Virus record (IMG/VR): IMGVR_UViG_3300021598_000629
Location: 1-36,577 of that record
Direction: 5' to 3' (one strand)
From: a virus
DNA: 36,577 nucleotides
In this document: piece after piece, positions 2,234 through 34,129 of the stretch
Layout: each line of letters starts with the position of its first letter
Position numbering within the stretch: the stretch's first letter is position 1
Translations under genes and position numbers: made by a program
Notes under the pieces: model-generated
The model's input: the letters and a program-made list of their open reading frames with translations, nothing else
Told to the model about the DNA's origin: nothing
Database searches by the model: none

Positions 2234-4132
2234 TTAGTCTGCCTTCTTCTCTGTGAAGCTGGCATCAACTACATCATCTGGTCCAGGTTGTGTAGGCTGC
2301 GGCTGTGCTGCCTGCTCTTTGGCCTGTTTTTTATCTAACAGTGTTTTCATTGCTGGGAAAACTTTGTTAAGTGCTTCGACAATTTTTTCTTTGTCGTCAC
2401 CTTTCATTACTGATTCTACTTCAGTGATCACCGTTTCAATTTCTGTGACTTCTGCTTCTGTAAGCTCTGCACGGAATTCTTCAAGGTCTTTCTTGACTTC
2501 GTGTACCTGTGCTTCTGCTGAATTTTTAGTTTCAATCAGTTCACGTGCTTTTTTATCAGCGTCTGCATTCAGTTCAGCATCTTTGATCATAGCTTCAATC
2601 TCAGCTTCTGATAGTCCGCTATTAGATTTAATAGTGATCTTGTTTTCTTTGCCTGTTGATTTATCTTTGGCAGAGATGTGCATAATACCGTTGGCGTCAA
2701 TGTCAAAGGTAACTTCAACTTGCGGTTGCCCTCTACGTGCAGGAGCAATGCCGTCTAGTTTGAATTCACCTAGCAGCTTGTTATATTGCACAAGCTCACG
2801 CTCACCTTGAAACACTTTGATATCCACTGCTGGTTGATTGTCTTCTGCTGTGGAGAATGTCTGCTGCCCCTTGGTCGGGATAGTAGTATTCTTTTGAATG
2901 ATCTTTGACATCACACCGCCCATGGTCTCAATGCCCAAGGAGAGTGGAGTAACGTCTAACAACAGTACGTCATTGCGATCACCACCTAGAACGGCACCCT
3001 GGATGGCAGCACCGACTGCTACGGCTTCGTCTGGGTTTACATCTTTACGTGGTTGTTTGCCAAACAGCTTTTCAACTTCTTCTTGTACCTTAGGCATACG
3101 TGTTTGACCACCAACTAAGATAACTTCGTCGATGTCTGCGGCACTCACGCCTGCATCCTTGAGAGCGATACGGCATGGCTCTAATGAACGTGTGATCAGT
3201 TCGTCGACAAGTTGTTCTAACTTGCTACGTGTGATCTTAATATTCATGTGTTTAGGACCTGTGGCATCTGCTGTGATGTAAGGAAGGTTGACATCTGTTT
3301 GAGCTGAACTTGACAATTCAATTTTGGCCTTCTCAGCCGAGTCTTTCAAACGTTGCAGAGCCAACATGTCTTTGCTGAGATCGATGCCTTGATCTTTCTT
3401 GAACTCGTCAACCAAGTAGTCCATGATACGCTGATCAAAGTCTTCACCGCCAAGGAATGTATCTCCGTTAGTGCTTAAAACTTCAATTTGTTTATCACCG
3501 TCGACATTCGCGATCTCAATGATCGATACATCGAAAGTACCGCCACCAAGGTCATAAACAGCAATTTTCCTGTCAGCTTTGTCAGCTTTATCAACACCAT
3601 AAGCAAGAGCTGCCGCAGTAGGCTCGTTAATAATACGCAGTACTTCCAGGCCTGCGATTTTTCCAGCATCCTTAGTTGCCTGTCTTTGGCTGTCGTTAAA
3701 GTACGCAGGAACTGTGATAACTGCTTGTGTAACTTCATGACCTAGATAATCCTCCGCAGTCTGTTTCATCTTACGCAACACTTCAGCACTGATCTGAGGT
3801 GGTGCTAATTCTTTGCCTTGTGCTCGGACCCACGCATCGCCATTGCTGTTTTCGTAGATCTCATAAGGCATCAAGTCCAGATCTTTCTGAACTGCTTGTT
3901 CTTTAAACTTACGACCAATCAATCGCTTGCTGGCGTAAATTGTATTTTTTGGGTTTGTTACTGCTTGGCGTTTCGCTGAAGCACCAACAATGATTTCTTC
4001 AGGTGTATAGGCAACGATACTAGGTGTGGTTCTAGCACCTTCTGAATTTTCAATAACTTTGGAAGTTCCGTTCTCGATAACAGCCACGCATGAGTTGGTG
4101 GTGCCGAGGTCAATACCGATGATCTTTGACAT
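2234..4132 (-). CDS. dnaK: Hsp70 chaperone DnaK
   Basis: A full-length Hsp70 of 632 residues. The nucleotide-binding domain starts [15 protein letters not shown] and carries [29 protein letters not shown] and [11 protein letters not shown]. The interdomain linker [13 protein letters not shown] is followed by the substrate-binding domain with [15 protein letters not shown]. The C-terminal tail ends [14 protein letters not shown], like bacterial DnaK. Sequence and length are those of a proteobacterial housekeeping DnaK, so recent acquisition from a host is likely. No dnaJ or grpE is in the window, so host co-chaperones are presumably used. An exact late promoter octamer and a small hairpin precede it. 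It could support virion-protein folding or work with the phage-encoded IscU. Confidence 0.97.
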
Positions 4133-4211: not shown

Positions 4212-4219
4212 TATTTATA
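4212..4219 (-). promoter_or_regulatory. T4-type late promoter (TATAAATA) for dnaK
   Basis: An exact TATAAATA octamer on the minus strand lies 80 bases before the dnaK start codon and directly after the stop of the MazG-like gene. T4 late promoters consist of just this element, read by RNA polymerase with gp55 and gp33. It implies late expression of the dnaK-hsp20 group. Confidence 0.65.
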
Positions 4220-9589: not shown

Positions 9590-11527
9590 TCAAACAATTT
9601 GGGTTATGTTAGCCTGTCCAAATCGGAGGCGGCGTCTCCAAAATACTCTCTCAACAAATTGAGCATCGCTCATAGTAGATTCGTTAAAGTCAAACTTTAG
9701 CGTAGTAGGTACTTTGTGTAACTCACTGGAGTGATCGTTTAAATATTGCCAAACATTGTGTTGGTATTGTTGAGTTCGTGGATAAGAATTGCGTTCTTTG
9801 AGTGGCACGGTAAGATGTCGTTGTAGATCCATAAGGTCCTGATGCAACTCTTGCCCAAGTTCAAATTCTTTTACAAATTCATCTAACAAGTCATACCATT
9901 TGGCAACAACCTCAGGTTGAAGTGTTAGTATCATGCGAGTATGAAATATAATACTGTTGCCATAAAGTTTGATTCCAGGTATTCCGCTGTCAAGTGTGCA
10001 ACGCCCGTGTTTGAACCAATCACATAGTACATCAATCTGTTGTTGTTTCAGTATACGATACCATTCATGCTGTTGTGCCTGTTTAAATAATTTGGTATAC
10101 ATTTCCTCATAGGAAACATTTTTGTAACGATTTAAGAATCTAGTAACTAAGTTGCTGTAACCGCCCACGTGCCAAGTAAACAAATTCCAGTTGAATATAC
10201 TAGCTTCAATGATGTCATCAAAAGACATATGGGCAGTACTAATTACAACATCTATGCTCTCAGCTGTAACCCCAGTATTTTCATGAGCCGACGGACTAAA
10301 ATAATCATAAATTTTTGTAGTCTTGATGTCGTAGACTTCTTTTTGGACTCGATTTAATTCTGCATTTTCTAGTACTTGGCAGTAGTAGATATCGATATCG
10401 TTGTGCATACCTAGGTCTAACAGTTTCCAAAGATTGTTTTGCCAAGACTCAAGTGTTTCTCGCGGCAACCCCATGATCAATTCGGTACCAATGGGTACAC
10501 CTTTTGCTCGTCCAATTTCTAGTATTTCAGCAATGTTGTTGCTTTTAAGATTTTTGCGTTTGATAGCATCAAGAGTATTATCGTCAAAAGTTTGTAAGCT
10601 AATCTTAAGACCTGTTGTAGGTCGTAGAGTTTTTTTGACCAGCAGTTCTACAATGTCAATTACTTCTTGATTTTGATTTTTAGCAAACGATTGAGAGATA
10701 CCAGTTGGAGCACCATACTGACGCTGTAGTTCAATAAATCGCTCTACAATTGATCGATCTCGCTCAGGAAAAATACCAAAATTAGCATCAGCAACGTGTA
10801 CAAAATCTATGCGGTTACGACTCATCCATTCAAGTTCAGCATATACACGCTCTATAGTAAACTTTTTAATTTTGCTTAGTGTTAAACTACCCCAGTCACA
10901 AAATGTACACTGATACGGACAACCACGATTGGTTTCCAGTGTAGCTGACCAGTTAACCTTGGGATTATCTATTAACAGTTGATCAAAGGTGCCTGTTAGA
11001 TAAGGACTGGATAAAATTGATAAATCATCAACTCGTGCTGCCTGACCAGTATCTAGTACGCTACCATTTTGATTTATTAGCACACCTGGCACATGATCAA
11101 AGTTCTCAATGTTACGCAGGATTTCAGTAAAAGTAATTTCACCTTCGTTTTTAATAATAGCATCAATCCAAGGATACTTAGAAAATATTGCAGGGTCTGA
11201 CACAGCCGGCTCTGGTCCTCCAAAAATAATTAAACAATTAGGATTGCGTAATTTAAGAGCCTCAGCTAAGTGTAAATTATATTGTAGATTCCAAACGTAG
11301 GTACTAAAGCCAACTACTGAATCGTTTTTTAATTGTTCAACTACTTGCTCTATTGGGTCACGTCGCCAGATTAATTGATTTAATTCAAACTGCGAATCAA
11401 TGTCTGGTTGAGATTGAGCGTGTGCCCAAAGACATCCAACTGTGTATGGTAAATGAAACGAATTGAGTTCTTCTGGACCTACTTGGAAATTTACTTGTAC
11501 AAAACTAACTTTATGTTTTTCATTCAT
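9590..11527 (-). CDS. Radical SAM protein with B12-binding-like N-terminal domain
   Basis: A 645-residue protein. Residues 1-140 have the layout of the cobalamin-binding domain of class B radical SAM enzymes (VGFSTYVWN, CLIIFGGPEPAVSDP, IDAIIKNEGE), although the DxHxxG cobalamin motif is not seen. The radical SAM core has RGCPYQCTFCDWG with Cys203, Cys207 and Cys210 for the 4Fe-4S cluster, then AELEWM, VADANFGIF, KISLQTFDDNTLDAIKRKN and ELIMGLPRET. A long C-terminal region (about 400-645) has no recognised fold. Radical chemistry on a peptide, lipid or nucleic acid is likely; the substrate is unknown. It would depend on Fe-S assembly, which this phage also encodes in part. Confidence 0.85.
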   Translation of the reverse strand: MNEKHKVSFVQVNFQVGPEELNSFHLPYTVGCLWAHAQSQPDIDSQFELNQLIWRRDPIEQVVEQLKNDSVVGFSTYVWNLQYNLHLAEALKLRNPNCLIIFGGPEPAVSDPAIFSKYPWIDAIIKNEGEITFTEILRNIENFDHVPGVLINQNGSVLDTGQAARVDDLSILSSPYLTGTFDQLLIDNPKVNWSATLETNRGCPYQCTFCDWGSLTLSKIKKFTIERVYAELEWMSRNRIDFVHVADANFGIFPERDRSIVERFIELQRQYGAPTGISQSFAKNQNQEVIDIVELLVKKTLRPTTGLKISLQTFDDNTLDAIKRKNLKSNNIAEILEIGRAKGVPIGTELIMGLPRETLESWQNNLWKLLDLGMHNDIDIYYCQVLENAELNRVQKEVYDIKTTKIYDYFSPSAHENTGVTAESIDVVISTAHMSFDDIIEASIFNWNLFTWHVGGYSNLVTRFLNRYKNVSYEEMYTKLFKQAQQHEWYRILKQQQIDVLCDWFKHGRCTLDSGIPGIKLYGNSIIFHTRMILTLQPEVVAKWYDLLDEFVKEFELGQELHQDLMDLQRHLTVPLKERNSYPRTQQYQHNVWQYLNDHSSELHKVPTTLKFDFNESTMSDAQFVERVFWRRRLRFGQANITQIV

Positions 11528-12633: not shown

Positions 12634-13002
12634 ATGCCAATATTATATTGGGAGTAAGTTGATCTACGATACAAAGCATTAGAAGCTATTGCCAATTCAG
12701 GTGATACTACAGCTCGAGTAGCCGCGGTAATTGCACTACAACAAGGTTCTCCACAAAACAACAGTCCTAGAGTTGAACAACCCACTAGCACCGGTGACAC
12801 GGCTTTACGTTGGGCTAGTGTAATTGTGCCCAGCCTTACTCAAATTTACGGTATTGGAAAAAGCACTGATCTTGCCATAGTCAACAGTAACAATAATAAA
12901 GACATTTCTATTAACACTAACCAAACTATGTTAGGGTTTGGTAAACTTATTGTTGATCCAATTGTTGGCACAGGCGACGACGTCCTTCTGTACCCACAAT
13001 AA
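12634..13002 (+). pseudogene. Plus-strand frame of 122 codons with an in-frame TAA
   Basis: ATG at 12634 reads MPILYWE, then TAA (12655-12657), then continues open in the same frame for 114 codons (VDLRYKALEAIANSGDTTA ... TGDDVLLYPQ) to a TAA at 13000. The downstream part has normal protein composition and a repetitive, Asn/Thr-rich character resembling C-terminal modules of phage fibre proteins. A late promoter precedes it and a terminator hairpin follows. No ATG, GTG or TTG restarts translation near the stop. It is either a nonsense-disabled gene, a sequence error, or a readthrough case. Confidence 0.5.
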
Positions 13003-13005
13003 AGA

Positions 13006-13025
13006 AAAGCACCCGAGGGTGCTTT
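13006..13025 (-). terminator. Intrinsic terminator of the tmRNA gene
   Basis: AAAGCACC-CTCG-GGTGCTTTTCTTT on the minus strand. It follows the coding piece of the tmRNA. The inverted form could also stop plus-strand transcription from the frame at 12634, so it may be bidirectional. Confidence 0.8.
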
Positions 13026-13027
13026 CT

Positions 13028-13186
13028 GGTAATTTCTGTTACGAGGTATTTCCTACCCTAAGCAGTGTTTAGGCTGCTAATGCGTATTCGCTTGAATTTG
13101 CGTTTACTTGATTTGCTTGATTTACGGTCATCGCCTACCGTGTTGCCGTCTCCATTATCTCACCCTGTCGAAACCATGTCAGGCCC
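13028..13186 (-). ncRNA. ssrA: tmRNA coding piece with tag ANSSEYALAA
   Basis: It starts GGGCCTGACATGGTTTCGAC, the tmRNA 5' end with its D-loop-like GGTTTCGAC. ACGGT/ACCGT forms a pseudoknot-1 stem. The tag frame runs 13101-13069: GCA AAT TCA AGC GAA TAC GCA TTA GCA GCC TAA, preceded by AGTAAAC as in bacterial tmRNAs. The stop lies in a CCTAA/TTAGG helix, as in helix 5 of E. coli. With the tRNA-borne Ala, the full tag would be AANSSEYALAA. The 3' end is approximate. Confidence 0.9.
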
Positions 13187-13198
13187 ATCATAAGAATA

Positions 13199-13306
13199 CT
13201 ATTTTTCAATTTTGTGATAAACACGAACATTATTATTGTACATATAAACAACCCAGCATACGCTTACAATTATCGTTATAGTAGCAAAAATTAATCCTTT
13301 AATCAT
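13199..13306 (-). CDS. 35-residue membrane microprotein inside the tmRNA intervening segment
   Basis: The ATG at 13306 follows AGGA with 7 bases of spacing. The product, MIKGLIFATITIIVSVCWVV followed by a short polar tail ending HKIEK, is a single transmembrane segment with a charged C-terminus. The frame fills almost exactly the segment between the CCA end of the acceptor piece and the start of the coding piece, ending 12 bases before the latter. I know of no homologue. Good SD and composition favour a real gene, but short frames can arise by chance. Confidence 0.5.
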   Translation of the reverse strand: MIKGLIFATITIIVSVCWVVYMYNNNVRVYHKIEK

Positions 13307-13319
13307 TTTAATTTCCTTA

Positions 13320-13387
13320 TGGTGGACCTGGCGGGAGTCGAACCCGCGTCCAGAATGCCTTCACTTTGAAGGGATTACAACAATTCC
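13320..13387 (-). ncRNA. ssrA: tmRNA acceptor piece
   Basis: It ends in GCGGG-TTCGACT-CCCGC (T arm with canonical T loop), CAGGTCC, A and CCA at 13322-13320. Upstream, CCTTC...GAAGG forms a hairpin, and CATTCTG pairs with CAGGGTG of the coding piece. The 5' end is not fixed by the sequence; the piece begins right after the cspA stop at 13388, so cspA and the tmRNA precursor may share a transcript. Confidence 0.9.
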
Positions 13388-13591
13388 TTAAGCAGGCTGA
13401 ATATTGCTAGCCTGTTGTCCTTTCATACCCATTGTGACTTCAAATCTTACGCTCTGACCTTCTTGTAGACTTTTGAAGCCACCTGAATTAATCTGAGAGA
13501 AATGAGCAAAAAGGTCTGCTCCGCCGCTATCCGGTGTAATGAATCCAAAACCTTTGGCGTCGTTAAACCATTTTACTTTTCCTGTTACCAT
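13388..13591 (-). CDS. CspA-family cold shock protein
   Basis: A 67-residue single OB-fold RNA chaperone. [15 protein letters not shown] holds RNP1 (KGFGFI, 13-18), and DLFAHF (26-31) is RNP2. The rest ([23 protein letters not shown]) is typical. CspA proteins melt mRNA structure and assist translation. A TTAGGA SD precedes it. It lies directly upstream of the tmRNA acceptor piece and downstream of four tiny genes behind an exact late promoter. Confidence 0.95.
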
Positions 13592-14018: not shown

Positions 14019-14026
14019 TATTTATA
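14019..14026 (-). promoter_or_regulatory. T4-type late promoter for the mini-gene/cspA/tmRNA group
   Basis: Exact TATAAATA on the minus strand, 36 bases before the first tiny gene. It could drive the four tiny genes, cspA and the tmRNA precursor down to the terminator at 13006-13025. Confidence 0.7.
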
Positions 14027-33315: not shown

Positions 33316-33638
33316 ACTCTAAAACTTTCTCCACATCCGCAACGATCTCGTTCGTTGGGGTTAATAAAATCAAAGCCTTCATTTAGGCCGTTGCGAACCC
33401 AATCCATAGTTAGTCCGTTTAGGTAAGCTAGACTTTTAGCATCTACCAAAACAACAAATCCATCATGAGCAAAATTAGTTACTCCAACTTCAGCTTCGTA
33501 GTTGTCCACGTATTCTAACACATAAGCAAGTCCACTGCAACCTGTGGTCTTAACGCCTATACGAATGCCTACACCTTTACCTCGGCGTTCTAAGGTTTGC
33601 TTAATACGCTTACTTGCTGTTTCGGTTACGGTAATCAT
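33312..33638 (-). CDS. iscA: IscA-like A-type Fe-S carrier
   Basis: A 108-residue protein. [17 protein letters not shown] and [16 protein letters not shown] match IscA, with the three cluster-binding cysteines; [13 protein letters not shown] is the usual lead-in. It starts inside the 3' end of iscU (29-base overlap) and overlaps the erpA-like gene by 4 bases, so all three are translated as one unit. Confidence 0.9.
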
Positions 33639-33996
33639 TTACGGCCGCCTTAATAGCATCTTCTGCTAGAATTGAACAATGGATCTTTACTGGGGGTAAT
33701 GCTAGTTCTGTGGCGATTTCGGAGTTTTTGATTGCTCCTGCTTCGTCGAGGGTTTTACCTTTGAGCCATTCTGTAACGAGGCTCGAACTTGCGATAGCCG
33801 ATCCGCAGCCATACGTTTTAAATTTTGCATCTGTAATAATACCTGTATCATGATCCACCTTTATCTGTAGTTTCATAACATCACCGCAAGCAGGTGCGCC
33901 AACCATGCCTGTACCAATGTCAGCATCGTTCTTATCAAAGCTACCTACGTTGCGAGGATTTTCGTAATGATCAATAACTTTGTTACTGTAAGCCAT
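33610..33996 (-). CDS. iscU: IscU Fe-S cluster scaffold
   Basis: The ATG at 33996 follows AAGGAGA, giving 128 residues, the length of E. coli IscU. MAYSNKVIDHYENPRNVGSFD, GAPACGDVMKLQI (Cys37, Asp39), FKTYGCGSAIASSS (Cys64) and LPPVKIHCSILAEDAI (His106, Cys107) show a complete active site. LPPVK is the motif bound by the HscA chaperone. It needs a cysteine desulfurase (IscS), which is not in this window, so host IscS is presumably used. The sequence is of gamma/betaproteobacterial type. Confidence 0.96.
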   Translation of the reverse strand: MAYSNKVIDHYENPRNVGSFDKNDADIGTGMVGAPACGDVMKLQIKVDHDTGIITDAKFKTYGCGSAIASSSLVTEWLKGKTLDEAGAIKNSEIATELALPPVKIHCSILAEDAIKAAVNDYRNRNSK

Positions 33997-34015
33997 GTGT
34001 TTCTCCTTGAGCATA

Positions 34016-34023
34016 TATTTATG
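34016..34023 (-). promoter_or_regulatory. Late promoter (CATAAATA) for iscU-iscA-erpA
   Basis: CATAAATA on the minus strand, 20 bases before the iscU start and just upstream of its SD. It implies late transcription of the Fe-S operon. Confidence 0.55.
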
Positions 34024-34079
34024 CCCTAATATTTTACTCAAAATATTTCTAATATATATTATGGTTTCTACTGAGCATG

Positions 34080-34087
34080 CTAAATAA
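34080..34087 (+). promoter_or_regulatory. Late-promoter-like CTAAATAA on the plus strand
   Basis: GCTAAATAATTATG, 43 bases before the ATG at 34130, sharing 13 bases with the minus-strand element at 28077-28084. It lies back to back with the iscU promoter. Confidence 0.45.
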
Positions 34088-34129
34088 TTATGTTGCAAAG
34101 CAACACTACACACTTACAGAGGAAAGAAA

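Follow-up and report, generated by a model that had tools for sequence, protein, structure and literature searches.

The window, by which we mean the whole 36,577-nt stretch of viral DNA analysed here, carries on its minus strand a complete circularly permuted (two-piece) tmRNA gene of the betaproteobacterial type. The Rfam model beta_tmRNA (RF01850) matches positions 13439-13003 with 166.9 bits (gathering score 84; E 5.2e-52), and tmRNA_permuted (RF04321) matches 13382-13069 with 144.1 bits (gathering score 47). ARAGORN calls a permuted tmRNA (tmRNA*) at 12978-13412, with the tag ANSSEYALAA. A preliminary description of this DNA had read both pieces from the letters, acceptor piece first and coding piece second, and had named Infernal with Rfam models and ARAGORN as a check; both call a permuted tmRNA, and our own reading of the minus strand agrees. 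In this RNA family, tRNA-processing enzymes cut the precursor and the two pieces remain paired.

The acceptor (3′) piece (13382-13320, the 5′ limit being provisional) comprises the T arm, the acceptor 3′ strand CAGGTCC (13330-13324), A73 (13323) and an encoded CCA (13322-13320). The coding (5′) piece (13186-13069) runs from the acceptor 5′ strand GGGCCTG (13186-13180) to the end of the tag. The acceptor stem forms seven of seven pairs, including G3-U70, and both stem and T arm can be read in the letters as first described. The tag reading frame (13101-13072) ends in ALAA and is followed by a TAA stop codon (13071-13069); ARAGORN and the letters return the same tag as was originally proposed. 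Between the two pieces lies an intervening sequence (IVS) of 133 nt (13319-13187), a segment delimited as in PMC11915505 and expected to be removed in maturation. A terminator-like stem-loop (13026-13005), at the end of the beta_tmRNA match, marks the 3′ end of the gene. Directly upstream is the cspA neighbour of the preliminary description, a gene for a cold-shock protein of 67 residues (13591-13388, minus strand; Pfam CSD, 6.6e-29). The late promoter placed ahead of the locus did not hold up: the nearest exact copy of TATAAATA lies at 14019-14026, about 430 nt upstream of cspA, and is one of exactly two in the window (the other at 4212-4219, both on the minus strand), while copies with at most one mismatch number 67, against 76 expected by chance.

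A join of the two pieces during assembly was ruled out, with contigs L050, L133 and L158, from three metagenomes, 99.98-100% identical to the window from 12667 to at least 14967. At 12666/12667, about 340 bases downstream of the tmRNA, these near-identical contigs hold 167 extra bases; the window has a deletion or an assembly gap there, in the start of a small plus-strand gene. No SmpB was found in nine phage records.

A 111.6-kb contig belongs to the same phage species as the window (98-100% identity in the pieces compared). It encodes the clamp loader of DNA polymerase (phrog_168, 9.5e-78), PhoH and a weak match to a baseplate wedge connector (phrog_677, 2.2e-8 over 35 residues only), a set that would fit a T4-superfamily myophage. 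T4 gp23 (major capsid) and gp20 (portal) gave no match in the window or in this contig, which may be incomplete, and the earlier label of a T4-like phage is partly supported. Five of 30 records searched with gp23, the window included, scored above the cut-off (G010, G011, G015, G016 and G026), all of them other contigs whose tmRNA genes carry the cargo described below. The same phage encodes ClpS (a Clp protease adaptor), Hsp20 and a full-length DnaK (1380-2204 and 2234-4132, minus strand), genes for protein quality control alongside a phage tmRNA that would mark proteins for the Clp proteases; ClpS shifts ClpAP away from ssrA-tagged substrates. Also on the minus strand are a heme oxygenase followed by a ferredoxin-dependent bilin reductase (165-1383; Pfam), a bilin pathway in a phage with a betaproteobacterial-type tmRNA, and a radical SAM protein with a B12-binding domain (9590-11527), which among named phages is matched in just three records, at 23-26% identity.

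Reading frames in the intervening sequence

The most unusual feature of the locus, absent from the preliminary description, is a gene within the IVS. Its 35 codons (13306-13199, minus strand) encode MIKGLIFATITIIVSVCWVVYMYNNNVRVYHKIEK, a single-span membrane peptide by hydropathy, with one hydrophobic stretch of membrane-spanning length (computed on L050, which has the identical peptide). A Shine-Dalgarno sequence, AAGGA (13318-13314), lies 7 nt ahead of the ATG, and the stop codon ends 12 nt before the coding piece. In phage contig L243 the order of cspA and tmRNA is as in the window and the coding-piece region is 95.5% identical over 176 bases; its IVS holds two tandem genes, the second homologous to the nested gene of the window and equal in length. 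The homologues differ at 43 of 105 bases without an indel (pS 0.65, pN 0.35), and when the same substitutions were placed at random 20,000 times, no stop-free ORF with a BLOSUM62 score as high arose. Differences at the three codon positions (15/10/18), from this one diverged homologue, show no clear third-position excess. Taken together, the homology, the pS and pN values and the random placements indicate that the window's own ORF is very probably coding, and we hold with considerable confidence, from these comparisons, that a coding gene is nested in the IVS. Searches of named phages by tblastn with the window peptide, a 61-aa cargo, the YICINNYS peptide and the MFDRL peptide gave no match, these short queries being weak tests.

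The idea of a cargo unique to this window was rejected, because pattern scans of viral contigs found many others. For the beta type, the scans gave 162 loci including the window, with 113 unique IVSs among the matches listed; the loci retained are fits to a specific pattern, and the fractions refer to the matches listed rather than to prevalence. For the alpha type, 121 records (120 contigs and the phage Melnitz) yielded 120 parsed matches and 93 unique IVSs, again among the matches listed. We counted as cargo any ORF that starts 4-21 nt after the CCA and fills at least 65% of the IVS. Among the matches listed, such an ORF is present in 69 of 113 unique beta-type IVSs and 56 of 93 alpha-type IVSs (Melnitz included), leaving 44 and 37, respectively, with no filling ORF. 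ARAGORN called a permuted tmRNA in 37 of the 43 loci given to it, missing L107, L236, L240, L246, L247 and L248; most loci lie beyond those called by ARAGORN and were recognised by the pattern and acceptor pairing alone. In six of the 43 loci (L309, L246, L210, L209, L211 and L192) tRNAs with anticodon CTA, called as tRNA-Pyl, lie near the permuted tmRNA, and TAG suppression in those phages is possible.

A stricter count admitted only ATG starts, up to 25 nt after the CCA, and compared the IVSs with interior shuffles that keep 12 nt at each end. Among the matches listed, ORFs filling at least 65% occur in 61 of 113 beta-type IVSs against a shuffle mean of 4.7 (maximum 10), and in 46 of 92 alpha-type IVSs, Melnitz excluded, against a mean of 6.0 (maximum 12). 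Under the looser criterion about 13 of 113 beta-type and 15 of 92 alpha-type ORFs are expected by chance, so some of the listed cargo is false. Among IVSs shorter than 110 nt, beta-type ORFs do not exceed chance (4 of 16, shuffle mean 3.1). Of the long beta-type IVSs (at least 175 nt), 26 of 33 unique ones among the matches listed pass; three of the other seven hold tandem ORFs (L240, L243) or a later-starting ORF (L245), and four, of 175-198 nt, have no filling ORF (L216, L223, L232 and L234). In L245 (1519-2060) an IVS leader, TAAGGAAATATCCA, is tandemly repeated ahead of the nested gene, its third copy shortened. Phage IVSs reach 405 nt, and a scan for IVSs of 416-476 nt gave no match.

The cargo shows purifying selection, in comparisons that take no account of relatedness. 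Of 19 beta-type pairs, 13 were pooled (one dropped as identical, one as missing, three for reused members, and L212/L218 as void owing to unaligned starts); they show 111, 77 and 170 differences at codon positions 1, 2 and 3 (p 2e-8, a value that treats related sequences as independent), with single dN/dS ratios from 0.07 to 0.73 and one not computable. Among seven alpha-type families, pN/pS is 0.15-0.22 in five and 0.49 in one, and one has too little variation. Chance ORFs as a general account were rejected by the interior shuffles, dinucleotide shuffles, antisense counts and these selection tests.

The proteins themselves are diverse. Single linkage places 128 of them, chance ORFs included, in 74 families among the matches listed, and most of the 69 beta-type cargo ORFs have 30-80 residues. 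The YICINNYS family has ten alpha-type members and one beta-type member (L196). In a Pfam search of 20 cargo proteins, 14 had no match even at E 0.01; the cargo of L250 is an IscU-like protein (NifU_N, E 3e-55) and that of L236 a thioredoxin (E 4e-21), with the same ORF in L241 and L242. In phage C48C1, whose record gave no permuted tmRNA, an IscU relative is an ordinary free-standing gene among others; the annotations of many phage records list thioredoxin relatives. The window, too, has a free-standing NifU-like gene (33610-34113, minus strand). Closely related tmRNAs often differ in what they carry: L229, with a cargo of 61 aa, and L199, with none under the 65% rule, share the same coding piece throughout the 140 nt compared. 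Of 28 pairs whose coding pieces are at least 85% identical, 26 differ in cargo, seven of these 26 involving L018, L076, L132 or L147, with ORFs possibly due to chance.

The helix that closes the intervening sequence

The ends of the IVS pair with each other, extending the acceptor stem past a conserved C74-A mismatch. Over IVS positions +1 to +10 of 85 unique end pairs, 92.5% of cells are paired, against 63% (maximum 66%) when partners are shuffled among sequences, and the helix covaries, with AT, GC, GT, CG and TA all seen at position +5. Pairing is about equal in genes with cargo (93.3%) and without (91.6%) and is also seen in some bacterial cases; the helix thus belongs to the tmRNA precursor and serves the tmRNA first. 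It is weaker where cargo is present, with medians of -7.9 against -11.1 kcal/mol in the beta type (p 4e-6) and -11.5 against -14.6 kcal/mol in the alpha type (p 1e-4), both tests ignoring kinship.

In the window, the 5′ strand of this helix, TATTCTTATGAT (13198-13187), pairs with 13323-13312, including the Shine-Dalgarno sequence in the 3′ strand, with two mismatches; AAGGA (13318-13314) itself pairs with 13196-13192. At -5.3 kcal/mol this helix is a weak one, with a single mismatch in addition to the conserved one, and the precursor does not fold with unusual stability (z -1.26; equalled by 21 of 200 shuffles). Of the 69 beta-type cargo genes, 48 have a Shine-Dalgarno-like stretch, which in 45 pairs with the 3′ end of the IVS; its place in the helix follows in part from the closeness of the start codon to the CCA (9-14 nt after it in 61 of 69). 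In alpha-type genes, Melnitz included, the Shine-Dalgarno sequence often lies beside the helix rather than in it, so sequestration is not universal.

At the other end of the cargo, a conserved TGAT precedes the coding piece in 90 of 113 beta-type and 78 of 93 alpha-type IVSs among the matches listed and gives a stop codon in one frame. The cargo stop ends 1 nt before the coding piece in 32 of 69 beta-type genes. For 49 of 69 beta-type and 24 of 56 alpha-type ORFs it lies in the final 13 nt of the IVS; for 19 of the former and 32 of the latter it comes after the coding piece's first base.

Relation to known systems

A permuted tmRNA in a phage is already known, and the suggestion that it is little or not described proved mistaken. 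PMC9004378 reports a two-piece tmRNA for Melnitz, a phage of OM43 (Methylophilales), and puts at 53 the two-piece forms among 133 unique tmRNA structures from 18,146 phage genomes; the tmRNA database of PMC11915505 lists 79 bacteriophage sequences of all gene forms. By our searches, Xanthomonas phage XacN1, Pseudomonas phage PA_L9 and Pelagibacter phage HTVC008M have permuted tmRNAs as well. Those of XacN1 (L309:1173-1593) and PA_L9 (L310:1174-1594) are unannotated in their records and, by reading, have no filling IVS ORF.

Melnitz resembles the window in its phage-borne permuted tmRNA and, by our reading, in its IVS ORF and closing helix, and is a myophage with T4-like transcription genes (PMC9004378). 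Unlike the window, its tmRNA is of the alpha type (alpha_tmRNA match) and has a glutamine riboswitch just behind it. The Melnitz ORF (MZ577097, L306:45984-46436), which begins MFKWLSK, starts 19 nt after the CCA and extends 42 nt into the coding piece; it is unannotated in the record and unmentioned in the portion of PMC9004378 seen.

Bacterial permuted tmRNAs (RF01850, RF04321) share with the window the covariance model, G3-U70 acceptor stem, T arm and tag, but their IVSs are short, the median being 42 nt and the longest 126 nt in 38 parsed cases at 37 distinct places, against up to 405 nt in phages. This sample comprised 50 loci (the 30 best-scoring and 20 long matches) from a list in which 158 of 398 genomes scored above the cut-off; 12 could not be parsed, L281 and L286 are the same place, and the parses of L258, L271 and L272 are doubtful. 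Eight of the 38 pass the 65% rule, all with IVSs of 33-75 nt. In L292 and L293 (55-nt IVS) AGGA stands 5 nt ahead of an ATG, and the short reading frames there are related in their first codons; this may be a minimal bacterial counterpart of the nested gene. A long-IVS pattern (171-231 nt) gave three matches in the genomes of 84,980 species, against 26 viral contigs. ARAGORN called a permuted tmRNA in only one of the three, L252, in whose letters no filling ORF was seen; L251 and L253 look like chance by reading. Pattern scans of 369 genomes of one class gave no match, a result of little weight since bacterial T arms often differ from the pattern. Given the three bacterial places against 26 viral contigs and the short bacterial IVSs, long gene-filled IVSs look, within these patterns, like a phage speciality.

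In a partial literature search we found no report of a protein gene in the IVS of a permuted tmRNA. The nearest case is a nominally archaeal permuted tmRNA whose IVS contains a tRNA-Ala gene (PMC11915505); this too is a gene inside an IVS, but an RNA gene, described as unique to one sequence, and not a recurrent slot for protein genes. Protein genes nested in a removed segment of an RNA gene are also represented by homing endonuclease genes in tmRNA group I introns (PMC11915505) and by the S23p gene in the 23S rRNA IVS of Coxiella (PMC4990558). Neither involves a permuted tmRNA, whereas here the gene lies in the loop of a precursor helix and the cargo searched has no nuclease homology. The arfA message, which lacks a stop codon and reports on trans-translation, offers an idea only for the present case, and the abstract of PMC10107115 does not describe it as part of a tmRNA precursor.

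Proposed competition of translation and maturation on one transcript

We consider it likely that the window holds a phage two-piece tmRNA whose IVS is a slot for a small protein gene, one transcript being both mRNA and tmRNA precursor. Such a transcript would run through cspA, the acceptor piece, the nested gene and the coding piece to the terminator. Ribosomes would load on the nascent or unfolded precursor and translate the nested gene. With the 3′ end of the IVS and the coding piece transcribed, the helix and acceptor stem would form, covering the Shine-Dalgarno sequence and presenting the processing sites; formation of the helix would commit the transcript to tmRNA, with translation and maturation competing on one molecule. 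The precursor would be cut to the two-piece tmRNA, which would rescue ribosomes during infection together with host SmpB. Regulatory coupling between the nested gene and tmRNA maturation is a tentative proposal, to which we would give somewhat less than even weight. We are more doubtful of its broadest form, a widespread slot in which the nested gene would be governed by tmRNA maturation, with folding hiding the Shine-Dalgarno sequence, processing removing or abutting the stop codon, and trans-translation clearing leftover product.

Several other explanations bear on the same observations. One that we take seriously, while judging it not quite probable, is that a gene-dense phage genome simply tolerates insertions in the IVS, with the cargo translated as in any operon and its overlap with the helix devoid of regulatory meaning. 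The diversity of the cargo (74 families among 128 proteins, chance ORFs included) fits this account, as do the free-standing IscU relative in C48C1, the thioredoxin relatives in many phage records, the near-identical tmRNAs with different cargo, and the alpha-type Shine-Dalgarno sequences outside the helix. It sits less easily with the weaker helix of cargo-bearing genes and with the pairing of 45 of 48 beta-type Shine-Dalgarno sequences, and the presence of the YICINNYS family in both alpha-type (10) and beta-type (L196) tmRNAs hints at more than random parking. A feedback like that of ArfA, in which maturation would cut the nested message at or before its stop codon and the product of the non-stop message would be tagged and degraded unless tmRNA were scarce, appears unlikely to us. 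An ORF running past the processing site, as that of Melnitz does by 42 nt, would yield a non-stop message on cutting and so suggests such feedback; the stops situated in the coding piece (19 of 69 beta-type and 32 of 56 alpha-type ORFs) or in the final 13 nt of the IVS (49 and 24) speak for it. For the window the idea does not follow, because its stop codon ends 12 nt ahead of the processing site and would survive a clean cut, the cut sites here being inferred.

The remaining accounts are far less probable. An ordinary permuted tmRNA with a non-coding spacer and an ORF arisen by chance would agree with the 44 of 113 beta-type and 37 of 93 alpha-type IVSs, among the matches listed, that have no filling ORF, and AT-rich spacers do yield short ORFs by chance; the shuffle nulls, the purifying selection, the 0 of 20,000 placements for the window ORF and the recognisable protein domains make it very improbable. 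We give marginally less credence still to selfish elements homing into tmRNA genes. The differing cargo of near-identical tmRNAs and the homing endonuclease genes sometimes carried by tmRNA group I introns (PMC11915505) recall such elements; against them, 20 cargo proteins searched in Pfam, ten of them also in PHROGs, gave no endonuclease match, and most of the 69 beta-type cargo ORFs encode just 30-80 residues.

Precursors of tmRNA are taken as non-coding, the short tag excepted. To judge from the contigs compared, many phages appear to keep different small genes in the IVS of their tmRNA, which we have not found described, the two-piece phage tmRNA itself being known. If phage IVSs often carry protein genes, a class of small phage proteins escapes annotation; even the record of the cultured phage Melnitz shows no gene within the tmRNA. 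Some of these proteins, such as the YICINNYS and KYLSG families, may act on ribosome rescue or host proteolysis, and a slot whose contents change from one phage to the next may supply phages with accessory genes. Because Melnitz is in culture, translation and processing can be tested now. If our reading holds, one RNA must serve as mRNA and also fold into a tmRNA, a direct conflict between translation and RNA maturation. In the broadest form of the proposal, with maturation governing the nested gene, the locus would itself act as a switch from a small protein to a ribosome-rescue RNA.
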